From NCBI RefSeq assembly GCF_030345095.1, contig NZ_CP128360.1, forward strand, positions 1,426,001 through 1,490,000: 64,000 nucleotides of DNA. The letters run 5' to 3'. Made by a program: the position numbers and the translations under genes. This DNA comes from Solwaraspora sp. WMMA2056 (lineage in GTDB: Bacteria > Actinomycetota > Actinomycetes > Mycobacteriales > Micromonosporaceae). The notes under the pieces are model-generated. The model ran no database searches, was not told the DNA's origin, and saw only the letters and a program-made list of their open reading frames with translations. This document shows, in pieces, positions 7,222 through 62,843 of the stretch (its first letter is position 1; each line of letters starts with the position of its first letter).

Positions 7222-7908
7222 ATGTCAGTCGCACTGGTCACCGGCGCCAACAAGGGTCTGGGCTTCGAGACCGCCCGGCAGCTTCTCGCGTTGGGCCACA
7301 CCGTCTACATCGGTGCCCGCGACGCCGAGCGGGGCCAGCAGGCCGCCGCGACGCTCGGCGCGCGGTTCGTCCAGCTCGACGTCACCGACGACGCATCGGT
7401 CCGCGAAGCCCTGGCGGTGGTCGCCACGGCCGAGGGCCGCCTCGACATTCTGGTGAACAACGCGGGCGTCCTCGGACTCGACGCCGCCGACGGGCCGGCG
7501 GCCCTGCGGGTGTTCGACACCAACGTGGTCGGAATCTACCGCGTCACCGAGGCGGCGCTGCCGCTGCTGCGCAAGTCTGAGAACGCCACGGTGGTCACGG
7601 TGTCGAGCAGCATGGGTTCCTTCTGGGCGGTGACCAATCCGCAGCGTCCGGAGTTCGGTATCCCGGCGGCGCTGTACGCGGCGTCCAAGGCGGCGGCCAC
7701 CATGCTCACCGTTCAGTACGCCAAGGCCGAGCCGGGCATCAGGTTCAACGCGGTCGAACCCGGCTTCACCGCCACCGACATGACGGCCGCCATGCCCGGC
7801 GGACGGCCGGCGGCGGACAGCGCCCGGGTCATCGTGCACTGGGCCACCCTCGACGCCGACGGTCCCACCGGGACCTTCCACGACGAGTCCGGTCCGTTGA
7901 GCTGGTGA
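7222..7908 (+). CDS. Short-chain dehydrogenase/reductase
   Basis: A 228-residue classical SDR. Cofactor motif TGANKGLG is at residues 7-14, NNAG in the middle, and the catalytic SSS...YAASK triad region follows. It most resembles carbonyl-reductase-like SDRs that use NADPH. The ATG at 7222 has a strong GGAGGAG ribosome-binding site and lies downstream of the last TetR operator. The start upstream at 7018 would run through the TetR gene and operators and is rejected. Its stop overlaps the next gene's GTG (GTGA), forming a two-gene operon. Confidence 0.92.
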   Translation: MSVALVTGANKGLGFETARQLLALGHTVYIGARDAERGQQAAATLGARFVQLDVTDDASVREALAVVATAEGRLDILVNNAGVLGLDAADGPAALRVFDTNVVGIYRVTEAALPLLRKSENATVVTVSSSMGSFWAVTNPQRPEFGIPAALYAASKAAATMLTVQYAKAEPGIRFNAVEPGFTATDMTAAMPGGRPAADSARVIVHWATLDADGPTGTFHDESGPLSW

Positions 7909-8561
7909 CGAGAACGATCGGGATCATCGGTGCCGGGGAGGTCGGCAGCCAGATCGCGCGGGCGGCGGTGTCGGTCGGCTACCGGGTCGTCATCGCCAAC
8001 TCCCGGGGGCCCGCGACGCTGGCGGGCCTCGTCGCCGAACTCGGCCCGATGGCGCGGGCGGCGTCCGCCGCGCAGGCCGCAGCCGCCGGCGACTTCGCCG
8101 TCGTGGCGGTGCCGCTCAAGGTCGTCAACGACATGCCGGTCGAGGAACTCGCGGGCAAGATCGTGCTGGACACCAACAACTACATGGTCTGGCGCGACGG
8201 CAACATTCCGGTCCTCGACTCCGGCGAGAAGACGGTCCACGAACTCCGTCAGGAACAGCTCCCGACGTCCAAGGTCGCCAAGGCGTTCACCCACATCCAG
8301 GCTCCCCGGCTGCTCGCCGCCGGCCGGCCGTCGGGCGCCCCCGACCGGCTGGCGCTGTCGGTGTCGAGCGATTTCCCGGAGGCCGTGGCGCTGGTGACCC
8401 GGCTGTACGACCAGTTCGGGTTCGACACCGTCGACAACAGCCCGCTGGCCGAGTCGTGGCGCAGTGGTCCGGGCCAACCCGCCTGGCTCCGGCACGCGCA
8501 GCAGAACCGGGACGAGTTGATCGTCAACCTGCGGAACGCGCGGCGTGTGATCCCCGGCTGA
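7905..8561 (+). CDS. NADPH/F420-dependent reductase-like Rossmann protein
   Basis: 218 residues starting at GTG 7905, overlapping the SDR stop. The N-terminus (IGIIGAGEVGSQIARAAV) is a dinucleotide-binding motif of the F420-dependent NADP reductase (NpdG) / NADP oxidoreductase coenzyme F420-dependent family. DFAVVAVPLKVV and KIVLDTNNY follow as in that family. Actinomycetes contain many F420-linked or F420-like paralogs of unknown substrate. Co-transcription with the SDR under TetR control suggests the two act on the same metabolite or share a redox cofactor pool. Confidence 0.82.
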   Translation: MTRTIGIIGAGEVGSQIARAAVSVGYRVVIANSRGPATLAGLVAELGPMARAASAAQAAAAGDFAVVAVPLKVVNDMPVEELAGKIVLDTNNYMVWRDGNIPVLDSGEKTVHELRQEQLPTSKVAKAFTHIQAPRLLAAGRPSGAPDRLALSVSSDFPEAVALVTRLYDQFGFDTVDNSPLAESWRSGPGQPAWLRHAQQNRDELIVNLRNARRVIPG

Positions 8562-8577
8562 CCTGCGTACCCGTGGG

Positions 8578-8605
8578 TTGACCTGCGGTTCGACCATGCT
8601 AGCTT
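8578..8605 (+). promoter_or_regulatory. Sigma-70-type promoter giving a leaderless transcript
   Basis: TTGACC (8578-8583), 16-bp spacer, TAGCTT (8600-8605). The expected start of transcription is about 8612, which is the A of the ATG of the substrate-binding protein, and no ribosome-binding site is visible. The mRNA is therefore probably leaderless, common in actinobacteria. Confidence 0.6.
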
Positions 8606-8611
8606 GCCGAC

Positions 8612-9622
8612 ATGAAAACCGTTACCGTTTCCGCTGGGCTGGCGGTGGTGCTGGCGGTCGGCCTGGCCGGCTGCGCCACCGCCAGCCCCACCGACAGCGC
8701 CGGCACCGCCACCACCCCGGCGGCCGACGCCGTCGAGATCACCAACTGCGGCACCACGCTGACCGTCGCCGCACCGCCGCGCCGGGCCCTCGCCATGGAG
8801 CAGAACGCCACCGAGATCCTGCTCAGCCTCGGCCTGGCCGACAGCATGATCGGCACCAGCTACCAGACCGACCCGGTGCTGCCCGAACTCGCCGACGACT
8901 ACGCGGCCGTACCGGTCCTCGCCGACCTCTACCCCAACCGCGAAGCCGTCCTCGACGCCGCGCCCGACTTCGTCTACTCCACCTTCACCTCCGCGTACGG
9001 CCCGGAGGCCGCCGGCCCGCGCGCCGACCTGGCCGCCCTCGACGTGCCCGCCTACCTGTCCCGCTTCGCCTGCGAGGACCCCGCCACCGGCGAGACCACG
9101 GTCGACTTCGACGGCATCTTCGCCGAGATCACCGAGATCGCCACCATCTTCGGCGTCACCGAGCGGGGTGAGGCACTCGTCGCCGACCAGCGCGGCCGGC
9201 TCGACGCCGCCATCGCGGAGGCCACCGCACCGGCCGACACCAGCCTGCTCTGGTACTACTCCGGCACCGCCACCCCGTACGTCGCCGGCTCCGGCGGCCT
9301 GCCCGACGCGATCAGCACCCGACTCGGCGTCACCAACGCCTACGGTGACGCCGAACAGACCTGGCCGGCCGGCAGCTGGGAGGAGATCGCCGCCCGCAAC
9401 CCCGACGTCATCGTCCTGGCCGACCTGACCCGGGGTGGTGACGGCGACAGCGCCCAGGCGAAGATCGACTACCTGCGGAGCAACCCGACCACCGCCGAAC
9501 TCGACGCCGTCAAGGCCGGCCGGTTCATCACCGTCTCCGGATCGTCGATGGACCCGTCCGTACGCAGCGTCACCGCCGTCGAAGCGGTCGCCGCCGGCCT
9601 CGCCCAGCTCACCGACTCCTGA
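8612..9622 (+). CDS. Periplasmic-binding lipoprotein of a FecB/BtuF-type uptake system
   Basis: A 336-residue extracytoplasmic lipoprotein (lipobox GLAGC, Cys21) that binds an iron-siderophore, heme or corrinoid for ABC import. RALAMEQNATEILLSLGLAD and the later WEEIAARNPDVIVLAD are typical of class III binding proteins (peripla_BP_2). It opens a four-gene operon with a methyltransferase, a FecCD permease and a FecE ATPase. No cobalamin riboswitch or DtxR box was recognised upstream, so the ligand is left open. Confidence 0.88.
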   Translation: MKTVTVSAGLAVVLAVGLAGCATASPTDSAGTATTPAADAVEITNCGTTLTVAAPPRRALAMEQNATEILLSLGLADSMIGTSYQTDPVLPELADDYAAVPVLADLYPNREAVLDAAPDFVYSTFTSAYGPEAAGPRADLAALDVPAYLSRFACEDPATGETTVDFDGIFAEITEIATIFGVTERGEALVADQRGRLDAAIAEATAPADTSLLWYYSGTATPYVAGSGGLPDAISTRLGVTNAYGDAEQTWPAGSWEEIAARNPDVIVLADLTRGGDGDSAQAKIDYLRSNPTTAELDAVKAGRFITVSGSSMDPSVRSVTAVEAVAAGLAQLTDS

Positions 9623-9634
9623 GGAAGCAACCCG

Positions 9635-10417
9635 ATGACCGACCTGATGACCGACCAGCTCACCCCGGCCGACGCCCGTCGACTGCTCGACCTGTGGGAC
9701 ACCCAACAGGAGGCGTACGTCGCCCACCGGGAGAACCGATTCCAGGCGATGCGCGACGTGCTGCGCCTGCACCTCGGCGACCGGCCGGCGACCGTACTCG
9801 ACCTGGCCTGCGGACCCGGCGCCCTCACCGACCGGGTGCTCACCGAACTGCCCGCCGCCCGCTGCGTCGCCGTCGACTACGACCCGATGCTGCTGCGCAT
9901 CGCCGCCGCCGCGCTCACCGACCACGGCGACCGCGCCGACGTACGCGACCTCGACCTGGTCGCCGACGACTGGGCCGACCGGCTCGGCGTCGACACCGTC
10001 GACGCGGTGGTCAGCTCCACCGCCCTGCACTGGCTCTCCCCGGCGCAACTGCTCGCCGTCTACACCGCCGCCGCCCGGCTGCTGCGCCCCGGCGGAATCC
10101 TGCTCAACGCCGACCACCTGCGGTTCGGCCCCGAGCAGCCGACCCTGGCGACGCTGGCCCAGCGGCACGACGAGCAGACCCAGCAGGACGGGTTCGCCGC
10201 CGGGGCGCTGCGCTACGACGCCTGGCACACCGAGGCGGCGCAGGTCCCCGCACTCGCCGCGCTGACCGCCGAGCGGCAGCGGCGCTTCGCCGACCGGCCG
10301 CAGCAGCCGGACTCGCCGCTGCAGTTCCACCTCGCCGCGCTGCGTACCGCCGGCTTCACCGAGGTCGGCACCATCTGGCAGTACCTCGACGACTACGTGG
10401 TCTTCGCCCGCCGATGA
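9635..10417 (+). CDS. Class I SAM-dependent methyltransferase inside the uptake operon
   Basis: A 260-residue methyltransferase. Motif I (VLDLACGPGALTDRVL) begins near residue 52; VAVDYDP and the later post-motif region (AVVSSTALHWLSPAQL) follow the UbiE/methyltransf_11/25 pattern. It starts 13 bp after the binding-protein stop, and its own stop overlaps the permease ATG by four bases (ATGA), so it is translationally tied to the transporter. It may modify the imported ligand or a siderophore. This is inferred only from position. Confidence 0.88.
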   Translation: MTDLMTDQLTPADARRLLDLWDTQQEAYVAHRENRFQAMRDVLRLHLGDRPATVLDLACGPGALTDRVLTELPAARCVAVDYDPMLLRIAAAALTDHGDRADVRDLDLVADDWADRLGVDTVDAVVSSTALHWLSPAQLLAVYTAAARLLRPGGILLNADHLRFGPEQPTLATLAQRHDEQTQQDGFAAGALRYDAWHTEAAQVPALAALTAERQRRFADRPQQPDSPLQFHLAALRTAGFTEVGTIWQYLDDYVVFARR

Positions 10418-49593: not shown

Positions 49594-50682
49594 TCAGGCG
49601 GACTTACGGTCGGTGGCCTTCCTCGCCGTCGAGCTGCGGGAGCTGGCCTTCTTGGCGGCAGCCTTCTTGGTGGCGGTCTTCGTGCCGCCGGTCTGCTTGG
49701 CGGCAGCCTTCTTCGCCGGCTCGTTCTTGCTGGCCGGCTCGGCCTGCTTCGCTCGCTGAGTCTTCTTCGCCGGTTCGGCCTGCTTGGCGGGATCGGCCTT
49801 CTTCGCGGCGGTCCGGCGCGCCGCCGGGGCCTTGCCGCCCGCCTTCCTCGCCGAGGTGATCGGGGTCGGCTCGGCCGGGGCCCGGTCACTGTCGGCGGCC
49901 TCGCCACGGGCCACCCGGGCCCGCTCCACCGAGGCCCGCAACGCCGCCATCAGGTCCACCGCAGCCGGCGGAGCCTCCGCCTCCTCCTCCGGGGCGACGA
50001 TCTCCCGGCCCTCCACCTTGGCGTCGATGACCTCCTGCAACGCGGCCCGGTAGTCGTCGGTGTACTCGTCCGGGGCGAACTCACCGGCCATCGAGTCGAT
50101 CAACGACGCCGCCATCGCCAGCTCCGGCGGCCGGACCTGCACGTCGTCGTCGAGGAAACCGAACGACGCCTGGCGGATCTCGTCCGGCCAGAGCATCGTG
50201 TTGAGCACCAGCACGTTGTCGCGTACCCGCAGAGTGGCCAGCTGCTCCCGCTGCCGCAGCGCCACCTTCACGATCGCCACCCGGTCGGAGTCGGCCAGGG
50301 CGTCGCGCAGCAGCACGTACGGCTTGGTCGCCGTACCCTCCGGCTCCAGGTAGTAGGCCTTGTTGTAGAGGATCGGGTCGACCTGGTCGGCCGGCACGAA
50401 CTCCAGTACGTCGATCGCCCGCGACGTGCTCAGCGGCAGATCCGAGAAATCCTCGTCGGTCAGGATCACCATCTCGCCACCGCCGAGGTCGTAGCCCTTG
50501 GCGATGTCGTCGTAGCTGACCTCCTCGCCGTCGACCGAGCAGACCCGCTTGTACCGGATCCGACCGCCGTCGGTGCGGTGCACCTGGTGGAACCGGATGT
50601 CCTTCTCCTCCGTGGCGGAGTACAGGCGTACCCCGATCGACACGAGGCCGAACGACACCGCGCCTTTCCAGATCGCGCGCAT
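49594..50682 (-). CDS. ku: NHEJ DNA-end-binding protein Ku
   Basis: 362 residues. MRAIWKGAVSFGLVSIGVRLYSATE and RTDGGRIRYKRVCSVDGEEV are Ku hallmarks, with YYLEPEGTATKPYVLLRDAL in the beta-barrel. The Ku core ends near residue 255; the remaining ~105 residues are a Lys/Ala-rich tail (AAKKASS, AKKADPAKQAEPAKK) known to strengthen DNA binding in actinobacterial Ku. Ku homodimers encircle broken ends and recruit LigD. It is divergent from the ligase gene. Confidence 0.97.
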   Translation of the reverse strand: MRAIWKGAVSFGLVSIGVRLYSATEEKDIRFHQVHRTDGGRIRYKRVCSVDGEEVSYDDIAKGYDLGGGEMVILTDEDFSDLPLSTSRAIDVLEFVPADQVDPILYNKAYYLEPEGTATKPYVLLRDALADSDRVAIVKVALRQREQLATLRVRDNVLVLNTMLWPDEIRQASFGFLDDDVQVRPPELAMAASLIDSMAGEFAPDEYTDDYRAALQEVIDAKVEGREIVAPEEEAEAPPAAVDLMAALRASVERARVARGEAADSDRAPAEPTPITSARKAGGKAPAARRTAAKKADPAKQAEPAKKTQRAKQAEPASKNEPAKKAAAKQTGGTKTATKKAAAKKASSRSSTARKATDRKSA

Positions 50683-50831
50683 GGTGAGTCCCCTTCGCCA
50701 CCACCGGCGGCCGCCGCCCTGTCCTGCCCTTCCCCAAGGTCAAGATCGTCCAGGTCAGCCCGGTGTTGATCCAGGATCGCATCCGACAGAACTCAGCGCG
50801 ACCACTTCGTTGCTGGTTTTACAGTGGCAGG

Positions 50832-51803
50832 ATGCCGGGTGGACCGCTGCGGCCGATGCTCGCGACGACCGGGGAGCTGCCCACAGGCCCCGGCTGGCGG
50901 TACGAGTTCAAGTGGGACGGCGTCCGCGCGCTGGCCGACATCTCCGGCGGCGCGCAGCGTCTGTACGCCCGCTCCGGCGCCGAGATCACGGTGGCCTACC
51001 CGGAACTGTCCGGCCTGCCCCGCGCCCTGGACGACGCCCTGCTCGACGGCGAGATGGTGCTGCTCGACGCCGCCGGCCGGCCGTCGTTCACCGCGCTCGC
51101 CGAGCGGATGCACGTACGGGACCCGGCGCGGGCCGCCCGGTTGGCCGCCGGGGCCCCGGCCACGTACATGATCTTCGACCTGCTGCGGCTGCGCGGCGCC
51201 GACCTGACCGGCTGGCCGTACCACGACCGGCGGCACGCGCTGGAAGCCCTCGGCCTGGCCGGGCCGGCGTGGGCGGTGCCGCCCGGCTTCGCCGACGGGC
51301 CGGCCACCCGGGCCGCCGCCGCTGAACACGGCCTGGAGGGGGTGGTCGCCAAACGGCACGACGCGATCTACCGTCCAGGGGTGCGCAGCCCCGACTGGGT
51401 CAAGGTCAAAATCGAGCTGACCAGGGATTTCGTCGTCGGCGGCTGGCGGCCGGGGGTACGCCGCGTCGGCGGGCTGCTGGTCGGCGTACCGGGGCGGGAT
51501 CCGGCCGGTGCGGCGACCGGTGCCCTGCGGTTCACCGGCCGCGTCGGTGGCGGCATCGGGGCGGCGGCCGAGCGCGCCCTGCTGGCCGCGCTCGAACCGC
51601 TGCGTACCGACGGGTCGCCGTTCGACACGCCGCTGCCGCGCGAGGACGCCAGGGGCGCGATCTGGGTCCGCCCCGAGGTCGTGATCGAAGTACGGTACGG
51701 CCAGCAGACCCCGGACGGGCGGCTGCGCTTCCCCCGCTTCCTGCGGATCCGCCCGGACGTGCCGGCCACCGACGTCGACGCCGAGGCCGCCGATGGCGGC
51801 TGA
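50832..51803 (+). CDS. ATP-dependent DNA ligase, LigD/LigC-like
   Basis: A 323-residue ligase. The adenylylated lysine is K27 in EFKWDGVRAL. LLDGEMVLL (motif III), MIFDLLRLRG, GLEGVVAKR (motif IV) and WVKVKIE (motif V) follow in order. The C-terminal OB fold is present. It lacks the nuclease and polymerase parts, which here lie in the next gene, so the LigD activities are split. Works with Ku in non-homologous end joining. ATG 50832; the upstream extension to 50763 has poor codon use. Confidence 0.93.
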   Translation: MPGGPLRPMLATTGELPTGPGWRYEFKWDGVRALADISGGAQRLYARSGAEITVAYPELSGLPRALDDALLDGEMVLLDAAGRPSFTALAERMHVRDPARAARLAAGAPATYMIFDLLRLRGADLTGWPYHDRRHALEALGLAGPAWAVPPGFADGPATRAAAAEHGLEGVVAKRHDAIYRPGVRSPDWVKVKIELTRDFVVGGWRPGVRRVGGLLVGVPGRDPAGAATGALRFTGRVGGGIGAAAERALLAALEPLRTDGSPFDTPLPREDARGAIWVRPEVVIEVRYGQQTPDGRLRFPRFLRIRPDVPATDVDAEAADGG

Positions 51804-51814
51804 CTTGAGGCGGG

Positions 51815-52759
51815 GTGCCGCCGATGCCGGCTGACCGGGGAGCGGGCGCGGCCGGGCGGATCCGCGTGGAGGTGGCCGGCCGGGCGCTGGAGCTGTCGAA
51901 CCTCGACAAGGTGCTCTACCCGGCGGCCGGGTTCACCAAGGGCGAGGTGATCGACTACTACACCCGGGTCTCCGGCGTACTGCTGCCGCACCTGGCCGAC
52001 CGGGCGCTCACCCGGATCCGCTACCCGAACGGGGTCGACGGGCAGTACTTCTTCGAGAAGAACGCCCCAGCGAGCACCCCCGACTGGGTGCGTACCGCCC
52101 GGTTGCCGACCCCTGGGTCCTCGCGCGGCCGCGACGAGATCGACTTCGTCGTCGCCGACGACCTGCCCACCCTGGTGTGGCTGGCCAATCTGGCCGCGTT
52201 GGAGCTGCACACCCCGCAGTGGCGGGTCGGCGCCGACCCTGATCTGCTGGTCGTGGACCTCGATCCGGGGGCACCGGCCGGGATAGCGGAGTGCTGCGTG
52301 GTCGCGGTGGCGATCAGGGACCGGTTCGCCGACGACGGGATCGCCTGCTGGCCGAAGACCTCCGGCCGCAAGGGCATGCAGCTGTGTGCGCCGGTTTCTG
52401 CCACCCAGTCGGCCGAGGTGATCTCGGGGTACGTCAAGCAGGTCGCCGAGGAACTGGAGTCTTCTTCGCCGGCGAAGGTCACCTCCAGGATGGCGAAGCG
52501 GCTGCGCCCGGGAAGGGTCTTCATCGACTGGAGTCAGAACAACGCGGCGAAGACGACGGTGGCGCCGTACTCGCTGCGGGCCGGCCCGGTCCCGGCCGCC
52601 TCGACCCCGCTGACCTGGCCGGAGGTGGAGGCCGCAGCGGCGGGGGACCTACTAGGGGCCGTCCGCCAGTTCACCGCCGCCGAGGTGCTGGACCGGATCG
52701 ACGAGTACGGCGACCTGCTGGCCGACCTGCTCACCCCCGGCCCACCCGTCCCCTCATGA
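51815..52759 (+). CDS. NHEJ polymerase/primase (LigD polymerase domain)
   Basis: 314 residues. GRALELSNLDKVLYPAAGFTKGEVIDYY is the start of the LigD polymerase (PrimPol, AEP) domain, DLLVVDLDPGAP contains the catalytic Asp pair, and FPKTSGRKGMQL-like WPKTSGRKGMQL binds the nucleotide. It fills in or extends ends at Ku-bound breaks, often adding ribonucleotides. The GTG at 51815 is followed 9 bp later by ATG 51824; GAGG lies just before the GTG. It forms an operon with the ligase. Confidence 0.95.
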   Translation: MPPMPADRGAGAAGRIRVEVAGRALELSNLDKVLYPAAGFTKGEVIDYYTRVSGVLLPHLADRALTRIRYPNGVDGQYFFEKNAPASTPDWVRTARLPTPGSSRGRDEIDFVVADDLPTLVWLANLAALELHTPQWRVGADPDLLVVDLDPGAPAGIAECCVVAVAIRDRFADDGIACWPKTSGRKGMQLCAPVSATQSAEVISGYVKQVAEELESSSPAKVTSRMAKRLRPGRVFIDWSQNNAAKTTVAPYSLRAGPVPAASTPLTWPEVEAAAAGDLLGAVRQFTAAEVLDRIDEYGDLLADLLTPGPPVPS

Positions 52760-54839: not shown

Positions 54840-54867
54840 CCGCTGACCGACCCTCCCCGGTCAGCGG
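54840..54867 (-). terminator. Terminator at the end of the GH32-like gene
   Basis: CCGCTGACCG (54840-54849) and its exact inverse (54858-54867), with an 8-nt loop, spanning the minus-strand stop at 54861. The gap 54510-54839 upstream of the helicase holds no supported gene. Confidence 0.65.
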
Positions 54868-55877
54868 GCGGCGGTCTCCGCGTGCGCGACGGCGGCCTGT
54901 GCCGGGGCGGTGGGTGTCCGGGGGGTGGCCGAGGCGTCCGGTCCGGTCGGGACCAGGCCGACACCGGGTACGTAGCGGACCGGGAGCGGGTCGGTGATCT
55001 CCCCGATGAACCGGCCGTCCTCGTGGTCGCGGAAGCCGATCAGTTGCCAACCGCCAGCGTCGTCGGGCAGCAGGCGTGGCGCGTAGAGGCTCGGATGGGC
55101 GTACGGCATCGCGGCGGCGACGTCCCACGGGCCGGTGGTGGAGGTCCCCGGTGCCACCCAGACCAGGGGCGCGTCCGGACCACCCCGGTCGGCGGTGACC
55201 GAGTTGGTGCAGAACAGCATCAGCGGCTGGCCGTCCATCACCACCACCTGCGGCACCTCGAGGTGGCCGAAGCCCGCCGGGGTGGACACCGGTGGCTGGA
55301 CCTGCCAGGTGAGCAGGTCGTCGGAGGTGGCGTGGCCGGTGACACCACGCGAGTCGGCCGCGCCGTCGCGGGCGCGGGCGGTGATCAGCATGTGCCAGCC
55401 GTTGCCGGCCGGGTCCGGGTAGACCCACGGGTCCCGCCAGGCATGTTCGTACCAGGCGTCGGGGTCGAGGGTCTCGTACCAGGTGGGGTCGGCTTCGACG
55501 AGCGGTCCGTCGCCGTGGCGGTGCCAGCTGACCAGGTCGTCGCAGACTGCCAGGCCGATCCGCTGGACCAGGCCCTGTTCGGCCCGGCTGACGCCGGTGT
55601 AGAACAGGTACCACCGGCCGTCGGGGCCGCGTACCGTGCTGCCGGTCCAGGTGGCCAGGTCGTCCCAGGCGGGGGTGTCGGCGGCGACCAGCGCGTCGGC
55701 GACCAGTCGCCAGTCGCGCAGGTCGGTGGAGACCGCGTGGCCGATGGTGGCGCGGTGGTGGCGGCGGTGCGGGTCGAGCAACGCCCGGGAGGCAGGCAGG
55801 AAGAACGCGTGCCACAGGCCGTCGTCGTCCCGTGCGTACCAGCTGTCCCACACCCAGTGGTCCGATAGCCGAAGCAT
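54861..55877 (-). CDS. GH32-like fructosidase (beta-fructosidase/levanase superfamily)
   Basis: A 338-residue cytoplasmic enzyme (no signal peptide). The five-bladed GH32/GH43-type propeller is shown by WVWDSWYARDDDG near the N-terminus (nucleophile Asp region), AWRDPWVYPDPAG (the RDP motif) and HLEVPQVVVMDG (the EC-like acid/base Glu). It probably hydrolyses sucrose or short fructans imported by the now truncated transporter. A LacI-type operator lies just upstream of the start at 55892-55907. Confidence 0.82.
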   Translation of the reverse strand: MLRLSDHWVWDSWYARDDDGLWHAFFLPASRALLDPHRRHHRATIGHAVSTDLRDWRLVADALVAADTPAWDDLATWTGSTVRGPDGRWYLFYTGVSRAEQGLVQRIGLAVCDDLVSWHRHGDGPLVEADPTWYETLDPDAWYEHAWRDPWVYPDPAGNGWHMLITARARDGAADSRGVTGHATSDDLLTWQVQPPVSTPAGFGHLEVPQVVVMDGQPLMLFCTNSVTADRGGPDAPLVWVAPGTSTTGPWDVAAAMPYAHPSLYAPRLLPDDAGGWQLIGFRDHEDGRFIGEITDPLPVRYVPGVGLVPTGPDASATPRTPTAPAQAAVAHAETAAR

Positions 55878-55891
55878 GCGTTGGAACCTAC

Positions 55892-55907
55892 GGTAAATCG
55901 GTTTAGC
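55892..55907 (-). promoter_or_regulatory. LacI operator upstream of the GH32-like gene
   Basis: GGTAAATCGGTTTAGC is a variant of the perfect 16-bp site GCTAAATCAGTTTAGC at 57278 and 59227 (three differences). It lies 15 bp before the GH32-like start. Confidence 0.8.
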
Positions 55908-55964: not shown

Positions 55965-57023
55965 TCAGTGCGGCCGGGGGGCGGCGATCGACTTGCGGCG
56001 GCGCAGCGGCATCGGCACCACGTACGGGGCGCCGGGTGCGCCGTCGAGCAGGATCTCCACTGCCCGGCGGCCCATCTGCTCGTGCGGCAGGGCCGCGGTG
56101 AACAGTCCTGGGCGCAGCCAGGTGGCGATCGGGTCGTCGTCGAACGAGACGATCGAGATGTCCGCCGGGACGGTCAGGCCCGCGTCGGCGACCGCCTGGT
56201 ACGCACCGAAGGCGAGCCGGTCGTTCATGCAGATCACGGCGGTGGGGCGGTCGGGTCGGTCGAGGATGCCGCGCATCGTGGTGTAGCCGTGTTCGGGCAG
56301 CCACTCCCGGCAGGACGGCTCGGCGTACAGCTTCGCCCCGGCGGCGGACAGCGCGTGCCGGATGCCGCGCAACCGGGCCTCGGCGGCGAGGGAGACCTCC
56401 GGGTCGCGTTCCTTGAGCCGGTTGCGCCCGATCAGCGCGATCCGGTCCCGGTGGCCCTGCTTGAGCAGGGCCTCGGTGACGGCGCGGCCGGCCTGTTCGT
56501 CGTCGGGGAGCACGCAGGGCAGGTCCTCGGCGCTGGTGGCGTTGAGCAGCACCACCGGTCCGCCCAGGATCGCCGGCGGTACGGTCAGCCGGCGGGTCGC
56601 CATCGCGGCGTAGATCACCCCGTCGACCTGACGGTCCAGCATGGCCTCGATCGCGTACCGATCGAAGGCCGCGTCGCCCTGGGTCTCGGTGATCAGCAGG
56701 ACATGGTCGCGCTCCCGGGCGGCGTCCAGTGCGCCCCGGATCAGCCCGCCGGCAAATCGGGTCGTAGCCACAATGTCGGACACGAAGGCAATGGTGGCAG
56801 TTTTTCTGGTCCTGAGGCTTCGGGCGGCGACGTTGGGGCGGTAGCCTAGTTCCTCGGCGGCGGCGAAGACGCGCTGATGTGCCTCCACCGACAGGCGCGT
56901 CCCCTCCCGGCCGTTCAGCACCATCGACGCGGCGGTCTTGGACAGCCCGGCGCGTTGGGCGACATCTGCCAGTGTCGCCCGATTTCGCGGTGTTGATCCG
57001 TTAGATGAGGTTTCTTTGTCCAC
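55965..57023 (-). CDS. LacI-family repressor
   Basis: 352 residues from GTG 57023 (GGAGG seven bases upstream; ATG 57050 is possible). The HTH (ATLADVAQRAGLSKTAASMV) and hinge (LGYRPNVAARSLRTRKTATI) are followed by the periplasmic-binding-like sugar domain (AVICMNDRLAFGAYQAV, ISIVSFDDDPIATWL). The genes around it carry three operators of one type, so it is the likely local regulator of a fructoside or similar sugar regulon. The stop is 58 bp from the operator of the GH32-like gene. Confidence 0.93.
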   Translation of the reverse strand: MDKETSSNGSTPRNRATLADVAQRAGLSKTAASMVLNGREGTRLSVEAHQRVFAAAEELGYRPNVAARSLRTRKTATIAFVSDIVATTRFAGGLIRGALDAARERDHVLLITETQGDAAFDRYAIEAMLDRQVDGVIYAAMATRRLTVPPAILGGPVVLLNATSAEDLPCVLPDDEQAGRAVTEALLKQGHRDRIALIGRNRLKERDPEVSLAAEARLRGIRHALSAAGAKLYAEPSCREWLPEHGYTTMRGILDRPDRPTAVICMNDRLAFGAYQAVADAGLTVPADISIVSFDDDPIATWLRPGLFTAALPHEQMGRRAVEILLDGAPGAPYVVPMPLRRRKSIAAPRPH

Positions 57024-57245
57024 AGCGTTGCCTCCGCCGGTCAGGCCCATGCTCAATGATGCGATGGTGGGCCGGCCGGGTCACCGGCGGGTCACCGCCG
57101 TGGTGGCGCCGGATCGCTGGTAGCGACCGGTTCGCCGGGGTGGCGTCGGCCGATCGGGTGGCCGACCGACGACCGACGGGGTGGGTGTGCCGGGGCGGCC
57201 GGTCCAGTGTGAACGAGCCGTTTCCGGACCGCTGCCAACTAGTCC

Positions 57246-57293
57246 TTGACAGCAGCGAGCAATCGGAAGCATGCTCTGCTAAATCAGTTTAGC
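57246..57293 (+). promoter_or_regulatory. Promoter with LacI operator for the truncated sugar operon
   Basis: TTGACA (57246-57251), 18-bp spacer, CATGCT (57270-57275), then the perfect palindrome GCTAAATCAGTTTAGC (57278-57293) at the expected start of transcription. The same layout recurs at 59193. Confidence 0.85.
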
Positions 57294-57374: not shown

Positions 57375-57394
57375 AGAACTCAAGGAGTCCCGAT

Positions 57395-57866
57395 ATGCGT
57401 AGTTTCGCGCGCGGAAGCTCCACGCCGGTCGCCCGGCCGTGGTGCTGGCGCCGCTGATGGCGGCGGCCCTCGCAGTCAGCTCATACCGTTCGGCGTGTTC
57501 TGGATGCGGACGCACTTCATCAACGTGCCACCGGAGCTGTCCGAGGCGGCCCGGGTCGACGGCAGCACCACCTGGCAGCTGTTCTGGCGGATCCATCTGC
57601 CGCTGGCCCGCCCGGCGATCGCCTCGCTGACGATCCTGCTGTTCCTGTGGACCTGGAACCAGTTCCTGCTGGCCATCGTGCTCGTCGACGACGGCACCAA
57701 GCGGACCATGGCCGGGGCGCTCGGCGCCTTCCAGGGCCAGTGGGGCACCGACCAGGTCCTGCACTGCGCCGGATCGCTGCTGATCCTGACGCCGACCCTG
57801 ATCGTCTTCCTCATCTTCCAGCGCCAGTTCATCAAGGCCCTGCTGCAAGGGTCGGTCAAGGGATGA
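57395..57866 (+). pseudogene. Fusion of a lost binding-protein leader with a truncated MalG-type permease
   Basis: The start (ATG 57395, AAGGAG upstream) reads MRSFAR and then, after a shift, a hydrophobic leader (PAVVLAPLMAAALAVSS) that looks like a binding-protein signal peptide. From about 57480 the sequence is the last ~125 residues of an ABC sugar permease: IPFGVFWMRTHFINVPPEL, the EAA loop EAARVDGSTTWQLFWRIHLP and ILLFLWTWNQFLLAIVL. The expected binding protein, first permease and most of the second are missing, so a deletion joined the two. No complete transporter remains in the window. Confidence 0.85.
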
Positions 57867-59020
57867 GCGTGCCGACAACCACTGCCGTGCACGGGGACGT
57901 GGCCGACGGCTACGGCCCAGTCGCCGACGTGTTCCGGGACAACTTCGCCACCCGCGGCGAGGTGGGTGCCGGCCTGGTCGTGCACGTCGACGGCCAGGTC
58001 GTCGTCGACCTGTACGGCGGACTGGCCGATTCGCGTACCGGACGGGCCTGGACCCGGGAGACACCGGCGGTCGTCTTCTCCTGCACGAAGGGGATCCTGG
58101 CGGTCTGCGCCTACCTGCTGGTGCAGTCCGGTCAGCTCGACCTGTCGGCGCCGGTCACCCGTTACTGGCCGGAGTTCGGCGCCAACGGCAAGGCGGACAT
58201 CCCGGTCCGGTGGCTATTCACCCACCAGGCCGGGCTGCCCGCGCTGGACCGGGACCTGACCCGGGCCGAGGTCATCGCCGAACGGCCGGTGATCGAGGCG
58301 ATCGAGCAGCAGCGATCGCTGTGGCAGCCGGGGACGGCGTACACGTACCACGCCCTGACGTACGGCTGGCTGGTCGGTGAGCTGATCCGGCGGGTCACCG
58401 GGCTGCCGGCGGGGGAGTACTTCCGCCGTACCCTCGCCGGGCCGTTGGGGCTGCGGACCTGGATCGGCCTGCCGGCGGCCGAGCGCGACGCGGTCGCCTG
58501 GACCCTGGCCCCGCCGGGCGGCCCGATGCCCTTCCCCGACGAGGTCAGTGAACGGTCGCTGACCATGGGCGGCGCGTTCGACTTCCCGGCCGACGCCGAC
58601 GGGCTGGTGAGCTTCAACGACCCGGCGATCCAGGCCGCCGGGATCCCCGGCGCCGGCGGGGTGAGCTCGGCCGCCGGGCTGTCCCGGCTGTACGCCGCGT
58701 GTGTCTCCGACGTCGCCGGCGGGCCGCTGCTGAGCACCGCGTCGGTCGACGACGCCGTCGTGGTCCGGGTCCAGGGCCAGCAGCGGTACGGCGGACCGGA
58801 CGCCGGCCAGCGGTGGGGGACCGGGTTCCTGCTGCGCTCGCCCCGGGTCCGCCCGATGCTCAGTGACCGCAGCTTCGGTCACGACGGGGCCGGTGGTCAC
58901 CTGGCGTTCGCCGACGACCGGTTCCGGGTCGGTTTCGGGTACGTGCTCAACCAGATGGGCGGTGTGGTCGACGACCGGGCGAACCGGCTCACCGAGGCGC
59001 TGCGCGGCTGCCTGGACTGA
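57863..59020 (+). CDS. Serine hydrolase of the beta-lactamase/EstB family
   Basis: A 385-residue predicted cytoplasmic hydrolase. The SxxK motif is SCTK (in AVVFSCTKGILAVCA), and the second catalytic Tyr motif lies in TYHALTYGW; a late HDGAGGHLAF segment occupies the KTG-like position. Such proteins are esterases or D-aminopeptidases more often than true beta-lactamases. ATG 57863 overlaps the permease-remnant stop by four bases, so it belongs to the LacI-controlled operon. Confidence 0.88.
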   Translation: MSVPTTTAVHGDVADGYGPVADVFRDNFATRGEVGAGLVVHVDGQVVVDLYGGLADSRTGRAWTRETPAVVFSCTKGILAVCAYLLVQSGQLDLSAPVTRYWPEFGANGKADIPVRWLFTHQAGLPALDRDLTRAEVIAERPVIEAIEQQRSLWQPGTAYTYHALTYGWLVGELIRRVTGLPAGEYFRRTLAGPLGLRTWIGLPAAERDAVAWTLAPPGGPMPFPDEVSERSLTMGGAFDFPADADGLVSFNDPAIQAAGIPGAGGVSSAAGLSRLYAACVSDVAGGPLLSTASVDDAVVVRVQGQQRYGGPDAGQRWGTGFLLRSPRVRPMLSDRSFGHDGAGGHLAFADDRFRVGFGYVLNQMGGVVDDRANRLTEALRGCLD

Positions 59021-59192: not shown

Positions 59193-59242
59193 TTGACAGC
59201 GGCTGATCACGGCGAGCATGCTCCGAGCTAAATCAGTTTAGC
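59193..59242 (+). promoter_or_regulatory. Second LacI-controlled promoter
   Basis: TTGACA (59193-59198), 18-bp spacer, CATGCT (59217-59222), operator GCTAAATCAGTTTAGC (59227-59242). It drives the esterase gene at 59353. A nine-C run lies at 59278-59286 in the leader. Confidence 0.85.
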
Positions 59243-59352: not shown

Positions 59353-60657
59353 GTGACCCTCCGCAGGAAGATGGTCGCGCTGCTGGCCACGGCCGCAGTG
59401 CTGACCAGCGCCGGAGCGGCATACGCTCAAGGTGGCAACAGCACGAACGTCGTCACCGGGATCCAGAGCATCACCCCGATCACCGAGGTCTACACGTACG
59501 GCCAGCGGGTCTCCGCCGTCGCCGTCGAGTACAGCGCCAACGTCGACCCCGCCTCGATCGACCCGACGTCGTTCACCGTCTCCGACACGGTGTACAACTT
59601 CCGGTTCAACCCGATCGACGAGCTGTCGAAGATGGCCGACCGGACCATCACCAACGTCTACACCAACAGCCGGGCGCACACCCGGCACAACAAGCAGTCC
59701 GTCCACGGCCGGTACGTCATCATCGAGCTCGACCCGGCCGACGTCGGTGGGTGGACCGTGATCGTCTCCAAGTGCCCGACGTTCCTGTGCACCGTCAAGG
59801 TCAACCCGGACCTGCCGACCACGCTGGTCCAGCGCAAGCCGGTCCGGGCCCTGGGCAACGGCGGGCCGGTGCTCGCCCCCGGCACCCCGAACCGCGTCCG
59901 CGCGATGACCAACGAGCCGGTGAACCTGCTCGTCGACGAGTTCTCCTCCGACGCCTTCCTCAGCGGCGGCATGGTGCTGCCGTACCACTACCACCTGCCG
60001 GCCAACTACGACCCGGCCAAGAAGTACCCACTGATGGTCGTCCTGCCCGGTCACGGCATGGGCTGGGACGGGGTCAACACCGGCGTACAGATCGCGGCGG
60101 ACATCCCAGCGGTGGCCTGGCTGCAGCGCAGCTGGACCGGAAGCGACGAGGACGTCATCGTGCTGGCCCCGCAGAACCAGCGGGTCGGTGCCGCCGCCGA
60201 GGCCGACCTGCTGGTCAAGTTGATCGACCAGTTCATCGCCAACCACAGCGTCGACACCAGCCGGGTCTACGCGACCACCGTCTCCTACGGTTCGCAGTTG
60301 GCCTGGGAGGCGTTCGCCAAGCGGCCGGACCTGTGGGCGGCCGGCCTGATCACCGGCGGCTTCCAGGTCAACGCCACTCAGGCCGCGGCGATCGCCGAGG
60401 CCGAGATCCCGATCTACCTCACCCACGGGGTCAACGACCACCTGCTCAACATCTCGCTGGCCCGCAACTCCCGGGCGGCGCTGACCGCCGCGTACACCGA
60501 GGACGGCAAGACCGAGCAGGAGATCGCCGACTTGTTGCGCTACGTCGAGTACGGCAACGAGGAGTTCTCGCTGCCGGACTACCACGCCGCCTACGGTCCG
60601 ACGTACGAGGATCGCAGCATCCTGAAGTGGGTGCTCAGCCAGCGCAAGGACGGCTGA
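59353..60657 (+). CDS. Secreted esterase, EstA-type with Ig-like N-domain
   Basis: 434 residues from GTG 59353 (AAGGA upstream). A signal peptide (MVALLATAAVLTSAGAAYA) is followed by an EstA-type Ig-like domain (TSFTVSDTVYNFRFNPIDEL) and an alpha/beta-hydrolase domain with PLMVVLPGHGMGWDG and the nucleophile segment TTVSYGSQLAWEAF; HGVNDHLL holds the C-terminal Asp/His region. It may deacylate acylated plant polysaccharides or esters. It has its own LacI-type operator, so it is part of the sugar regulon. Confidence 0.85.
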   Translation: MTLRRKMVALLATAAVLTSAGAAYAQGGNSTNVVTGIQSITPITEVYTYGQRVSAVAVEYSANVDPASIDPTSFTVSDTVYNFRFNPIDELSKMADRTITNVYTNSRAHTRHNKQSVHGRYVIIELDPADVGGWTVIVSKCPTFLCTVKVNPDLPTTLVQRKPVRALGNGGPVLAPGTPNRVRAMTNEPVNLLVDEFSSDAFLSGGMVLPYHYHLPANYDPAKKYPLMVVLPGHGMGWDGVNTGVQIAADIPAVAWLQRSWTGSDEDVIVLAPQNQRVGAAAEADLLVKLIDQFIANHSVDTSRVYATTVSYGSQLAWEAFAKRPDLWAAGLITGGFQVNATQAAAIAEAEIPIYLTHGVNDHLLNISLARNSRAALTAAYTEDGKTEQEIADLLRYVEYGNEEFSLPDYHAAYGPTYEDRSILKWVLSQRKDG

Positions 60658-60844: not shown

Positions 60845-61274
60845 CTATTATAGTCAAGAACTCGGCGGCTGAAGCGTGGGTGGCGTCCTGCGTAGGAAAG
60901 ACCCCTAAGTGGGATCTGTATTTGATCGGCCGCTCTTGACAACGTTTGGCGATTGTCGCTGCTCGATCTCTTGTGAATGTTGGCAATCACAACTATGCTC
61001 ATGCTCGAGAGCGCAGGGCACGCTACGTGACTTCCGTGAAGGCCGACGCGGCCCGGCGGAGTCGGCACGGGCAGCGTTTGGACGCCGCCTGTCCGGGCCG
61101 CAGTGCCAGGCGCTTCATGCCGTCGATCCGGGCCCGACGGCGACCATCCGTTCCACCGGCCGCTCAGACCATCGATCCGTCACCGATGGCGACCTGGCGT
61201 GCCCGATCCCGCACCCCCTCCTGGTCCCGCGAGAAGGCGTACAGCAGTGCAACGCTCAGGTCTTCGACTCCTGA

Positions 61275-62843
<1,569 letters not shown>

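Follow-up and report, generated by a model that had tools for sequence, protein, structure and literature searches.

A lineage-specific deletion in a putative LacI-controlled sugar importer operon of Solwaraspora sp. WMMA2056 and replacement changes in the neighbouring genes

In the genome of Solwaraspora sp. WMMA2056, a lineage-specific deletion of 2,636 bp very probably left only a pseudogene stub of a sugar ABC importer operon; the importer was probably lost by this event, and its presumed partner genes and its regulator appear to have begun to decay. The window analyzed here is a stretch of 64,000 nucleotides from a genome of 7,010,427 bp that is assembled in one contig with 99% completeness. 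An earlier reading of the window from its letters only (the sequence-only reading) had proposed a deletion that fused a binding-protein leader to the tail of a sugar permease. Through the comparison with relatives carrying the full operon of a binding protein (SBP) and two permeases, which is the check that this reading had proposed, the deletion was supported and could now be sized and placed. The most informative of the new results is the excess of replacement changes in the genes nearby. No literature on this operon was found among the titles and abstract openings searched.

Deletion in the importer operon

The features of the locus are as follows.

54861 to 55877, minus strand: GH32-like hydrolase (Pfam GH32N, 4.2e-13)
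55965 to 57056, minus strand: divergent LacI-family regulator, open frame (Pfam LacI and Peripla_BP_3; ungapped against G002)
57395 to 57866, plus strand: SBP/MalG stub, between the LacI and serine hydrolase genes
57395 to 57480, plus strand: what is left of the SBP gene, its leader only (from the alignment with intact SBP genes in four relatives)
57406 to 57413, plus strand: (CG)4 run, (CG)3 in G002; 2 bp gained, which changes the reading frame of the leader
57480 to 57481, no strand: deletion junction, with microhomology absent relative to G002
57483 to 57866, plus strand: 3′ remnant of a MalG-type permease, 127 codons and stop; the codon 57480 to 57482 spans the junction
57863 to 59020, plus strand: PF00144 serine hydrolase, open frame (Pfam, 2.9e-64; ungapped against G002)
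59353 to 60657: esterase with an EstA_Ig_like domain (profile family search)
61335 to 62843: GH10 xylanase gene

In the alignment with the nearest relative, G002, the 2,636 bp are absent between 57480 and 57481 of the window and correspond to positions 7224 to 9859 of the reverse complement of L097. On the left of the junction (to 57480) the identity to G002 is 94.8%, and on the right of it (from 57481) 93.9%. In G002 and three further congeners (G004, G001 and G006) the gap region is filled by the SBP, MalF and MalG genes. A DNA search of the single-contig genome (7.0 Mb), in which the lost stretch was queried together with its flanking sequences, did not find this stretch elsewhere; both flanks were found abutting at 1483480|1483481, accompanied by weak paralogue matches. 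From these comparisons it is well supported that a deletion in the window lineage took away malF completely, together with most of the SBP gene and the front half of malG.

A Ku-like gene and two LigD-type genes, as we name them from reading the sequence, lie at 49594 to 52759 of the window, about 5 to 8 kb upstream of the junction. Their proximity and a junction without microhomology are no more than compatible with non-homologous end joining (NHEJ) as the cause of the deletion.

Reading frames of the remnant

The leader does adjoin the 3′ part of MalG at 57480|57481, as the sequence-only reading had it, but it does not run into the permease as a protein since the frames differ. It is cut just 5′ of the AC in a lipobox-like AVSAC. 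The ATG frame from 57395 encodes MRSFARGSSTPVARPWCWRR, 20 residues that are followed by a stop at 57455 to 57457, the hydrophobic leader segment VVLAPLMAAALAVSS sits in a second frame, and the permease is in the third. In G002 the leader reads MRSFARKLHAGRPAVVLAPLMAAALAVSAC. The 2-bp gain in the CG run is seen relative to all four relatives. Even without it the junction would be out of frame, because 2,636 is not divisible by three and the start frames of SBP and MalG differ in G002. An SBP-permease fusion protein was therefore ruled out, and the fusion fragment that was thought to be still expressed is not encoded.

The permease tail comprises 128 of 274 residues, nearly half of the protein and not its last third as first estimated. 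It matches Pfam BPD_transp_1 (1.6e-15) over profile positions 65 to 174 of 184 only, and the full-length membrane domain is absent, the first 146 of the 274 MalG residues being gone. The tail is 98% identical to the G002 permease and has few changes, namely 2:3 (replacement:silent) in the window and 0:3 in the sister; an M-to-I and an L-to-H change are found at positions conserved in 79/80 and 80/80 homologues. It contains EAARVDGSTTWQLFWRIHLPLARP, which was judged by eye to be the EAA motif loop, the part of such permeases that contacts the ATPase. The partner MalF and the binding protein are deleted at the operon and were not found elsewhere in the genome. On sequence grounds, leader and tail are read as a pseudogene remnant, and at the corresponding position the relatives have the gene intact.

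Promoter and operator

Upstream of the stub, the following regulatory elements could be recognized.

57246 to 57275, plus strand: promoter-like elements of the former SBP operon (TTGACA, 18-bp gap, CATGCT)
57279 to 57292, plus strand: putative LacI-type palindromic operator CTAAATCAGTTTAG, identical in 5/5 aligned sequences
55894 to 55905: operator-like TAAATCGGTTTA, upstream of the GH32-like hydrolase gene
59229 to 59240, plus strand: the operator core a second time, upstream of the esterase gene

TTGACA (57246 to 57251) and CATGCT (57270 to 57275), which we read as putative −35 and −10 elements, are identical in the alignment of the window with G002, G004, G001 and G006. The earlier statement that promoter and operator are intact is thus borne out by conservation among five aligned sequences. 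The exact 14-base operator has two matches in each of five of the seven genomes, all ten at this locus, and none in G003 and G005; in the own genome, the exact-match search gave no match outside the locus. In G001, the reversed control pattern was matched once as well. With up to two mismatches, the core pattern is matched five times in the window compared to 0.21 expected. Two of these matches represent a single site seen on either strand, and another is a distant site with two mismatches, so that three good sites are left at 55894, 57280 and 59229. The serine hydrolase gene may still be reached by transcripts that start at this conserved promoter region.

Distribution in relatives and probable loss of transport

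Intact SBP, MalF and MalG genes were confirmed by alignment in all four congeners that have the permease tail. The other two of the six congeners, G003 and G005, are without the permease tail at E 1e-40; the serine hydrolase is missing in G003 and represented by a 44% relative in G005. In a search of named genomes, the best relatives of the locus were found in Micromonospora species. Among the best 80 of 302 named loci, MalF and MalG are present in 80/80, SBP in 79/80, LacI in 79/80, the GH32-like gene in 50/80 and the serine hydrolase in 38/80, in 36 of these 38 loci directly after MalG. The one locus without SBP, L048, begins inside MalF at a contig end. At a cut-off of E 1e-50, the tail was found in 90 of 300 family genomes. 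Its open frame has 189 aa in the window and at least 275 aa in all the others, frames being counted from stop to stop, which makes this a loose test. A shared deletion in other species was found neither among the 80 named loci nor, by this loose open-frame test, among the 90 matching genomes.

For the lost SBP, no close replacement was found, as no binding-protein paralogue in this genome exceeds 29% identity (a 92% match is the leader remnant itself). A backup transporter was rejected because no orthologue was found and the identity of the permease paralogues does not go beyond 44%. An unrelated importer could take up the sugar. Of the two outcomes considered before, import by another route or none at all, the lack of a close paralogue, the restriction of the operator to the locus and the partner relaxation described below lean, short of a demonstration, towards none at all.

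Concerning the sugar, the lost SBP matches solved binding proteins for chitin-oligosaccharide, manno-oligosaccharide and maltose among others (E 7e-14 to 9e-6), the GH32-like hydrolase has weak matches to levansucrase and beta-fructosidase, and GH10 and GH30 genes are found close by. The GH32-like protein has 338 aa and is matched weakly by the GH32, GH43 and GH68 models alike; its gene is near the importer in the 50 of 80 loci mentioned above (best 80 of 302).

Replacement changes in the neighbouring genes

Replacement and silent changes were compared between the window and G002, a change being assigned to a branch when all available outgroups agreed; counts were obtained only for genes represented in G002 and two outgroups. 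The partner set, chosen by the analyst, consists of the GH32-like gene, the LacI gene, the serine hydrolase gene, which the automatic gene picker had missed and which was added by hand, and the permease tail. The controls are an automatic, uncurated choice based on codon-position GC; one of 21 in the distant set was skipped.

In the window, the replacement:silent counts are 12:5 for the GH32-like gene, 6:9 for LacI and 8:7 for the serine hydrolase, compared to 2:5, 3:11 and 1:7 in G002. Including the tail, this sums up to 28:24 in the window and 6:26 in the sister (Fisher p = 0.0015). The nine local control genes gave 22:49 in the window and 28:54 in G002, and twenty further controls around two other sugar-transporter loci gave 77:168 and 93:206, resulting in 99:217 versus 121:260 for all 29 controls (p = 0.93). 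Compared with all controls, the partners deviate with p = 0.0025 on the window branch and p = 0.16 on the G002 branch. When any four of the 33 genes were drawn, 496 of 40,920 draws (1.2%) were equally extreme; for draws from the controls alone, these were 71 of 23,751. The partner genes have nearly equal numbers of silent changes on the two branches (24 and 26), and therefore neither a faster mutation rate nor imported DNA is needed.

Under neutrality, about 2.3 to 2.7 replacements per silent change are expected, and the partners show 1.17 in the window and 0.23 in the sister. As 28:24 falls clearly short of the neutral ratio, constraint has not vanished in the partner genes, which remain open frames. 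A window ratio between the neutral and the sister value is as expected if the relaxation is recent or partial. The GH32-like hydrolase and the serine hydrolase presumably handle the imported sugar; once uptake was gone, both enzymes and the regulator would come under weaker selection and start decaying.

The esterase, which is outside the partner set, has 11:9 in the window and 12:11 in the sister, and its inclusion weakens the partner comparison to p = 0.02. Adding both the esterase and the GH10 gene gives p = 0.005. The GH10 gene and a minus-strand open frame within the GH30 gene are in neither the partner nor the control set; the latter, which is probably not a gene, has 15:9 in the window and 1:6 in the sister.

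For the GH10 gene itself, 18:30 changes were counted in the window and 0:13 in G002 (p = 0.007), both kinds of change being raised. Since GH10 is no presumed partner and is also in excess, the relaxation signal is not specific to the importer partners. The GH10 excess may reflect relaxation over the whole saccharolytic locus, another history of this gene such as recombination, or an alignment effect. A relaxed constraint on the partner genes, as read from these few and not partner-specific changes, is suggestive but not conclusive.

These counts also bear on two other explanations of the locus. The stub might be kept for a purpose, with promoter, leader and tail maintaining the expression of a serine hydrolase that is coupled through the ATGA overlap of the permease stop and its own start. 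The conserved promoter-like elements and operator, the open serine hydrolase frame and the presence of this overlap in both the window and G002 would agree with that. We consider it unlikely, since the serine hydrolase itself has the raised ratio given above, including changes at two sites that are conserved in 36/36 homologues, the in-frame starts of the tail have no ribosome-binding motif nearby, and the AAGGAG at 57382 to 57387 serves the ATG at 57395 in another frame than the tail.

Less likely still is an adaptation of the partner genes to a new role after the importer loss. Raised replacement changes at a level number of silent changes would fit positive selection, but fully conserved positions were hit in the GH32-like protein (two sites, 46/46), in LacI (one site, 44/44) and in the serine hydrolase (the two sites just mentioned), and the ratio stays below the neutral range. 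Because of these two observations positive selection is not required.

A second broken gene and the integrity of the assembly

Downstream of the esterase, the family search found GH10 and GH30 genes with CBM2, and ahead of them a second remnant.

61210 to 61430, plus strand: what remains of a secreted GH43-CBM2 gene, namely leader and tail, with about 1.8 kb gone between about 61300 and about 61318

It lies 3.8 kb downstream of the importer stub. In all four relatives, the space between the esterase and GH10 genes is taken by a long open frame that shares the C-terminal sequence of the remnant, and the G002 copy matches GH43 (2.2e-38), CBM2 and GH43_C2. The tail of the remnant carries further small indels, and the remnant has an identity of about 81 to 85% compared to 94% alongside. 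Being more diverged, this loss is probably the older one. That the left ends of both lesions lie in or near a signal-peptide stretch is treated as a coincidence.

The deletion could be artefactual, the organism having the full operon and the assembly being collapsed or misjoined. The result does depend on a single assembly, and the 2-bp difference in the CG run is also a common type of sequencing error. Nevertheless, such an artefact is very unlikely: the junction is sharp and lies within the single, nearly complete contig, its ends share no sequence in G002, so that there is nothing to drive a collapse, and seven neighbours (two LigD-type genes, helicase, GH32-like, LacI, serine hydrolase and esterase) can be aligned with G002 in a single frame and almost from end to end. 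The comparison for the Ku gene spans 103 of 362 residues, where the G002 stretch ends. Furthermore, the partner genes have a replacement excess on the window lineage and a second gene nearby is broken with several small indels, and these two observations favour a genuine loss over an assembly collapse.

The stub might also be a regulatory leftover, whose promoter and operator sustain the expression of the enzymes under LacI control or bind away the repressor while a polymer is degraded outside, its product not imported, and the C-terminal permease piece survives as a short membrane peptide; we consider this very improbable.

Comparison with known systems

The preferred reading, a deletion that hit a LacI-controlled sugar ABC importer operon, makes this a case of ordinary pathway decay, that is, reductive evolution of a catabolic locus caught early. 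It looks like a clean step-by-step loss, in which the transporter went in one event and the enzymes and the regulator appear relaxed with their frames still open. An annotation would label these neighbours as functional, and the case thus cautions against reading sugar use from such genes.

The importer belongs to a class that we take to be CUT1-type (MalFG-like). The four congeners share with CUT1-type importer operons of actinobacteria a lipobox-like SBP, MalF, MalG and a divergent LacI gene; since the serine hydrolase overlaps the MalG stop, no ATPase gene lies between them. Of this arrangement, only the SBP leader and the second half of MalG are left in the window. With bacterial pseudogenes formed by internal deletion, the stub has in common the sharp deletion, the loss of frame, the remnant ends, the substitutions at conserved sites and the conserved regulatory region. 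There is no difference in kind, and the replacement-change excess in the neighbours is a useful addition.
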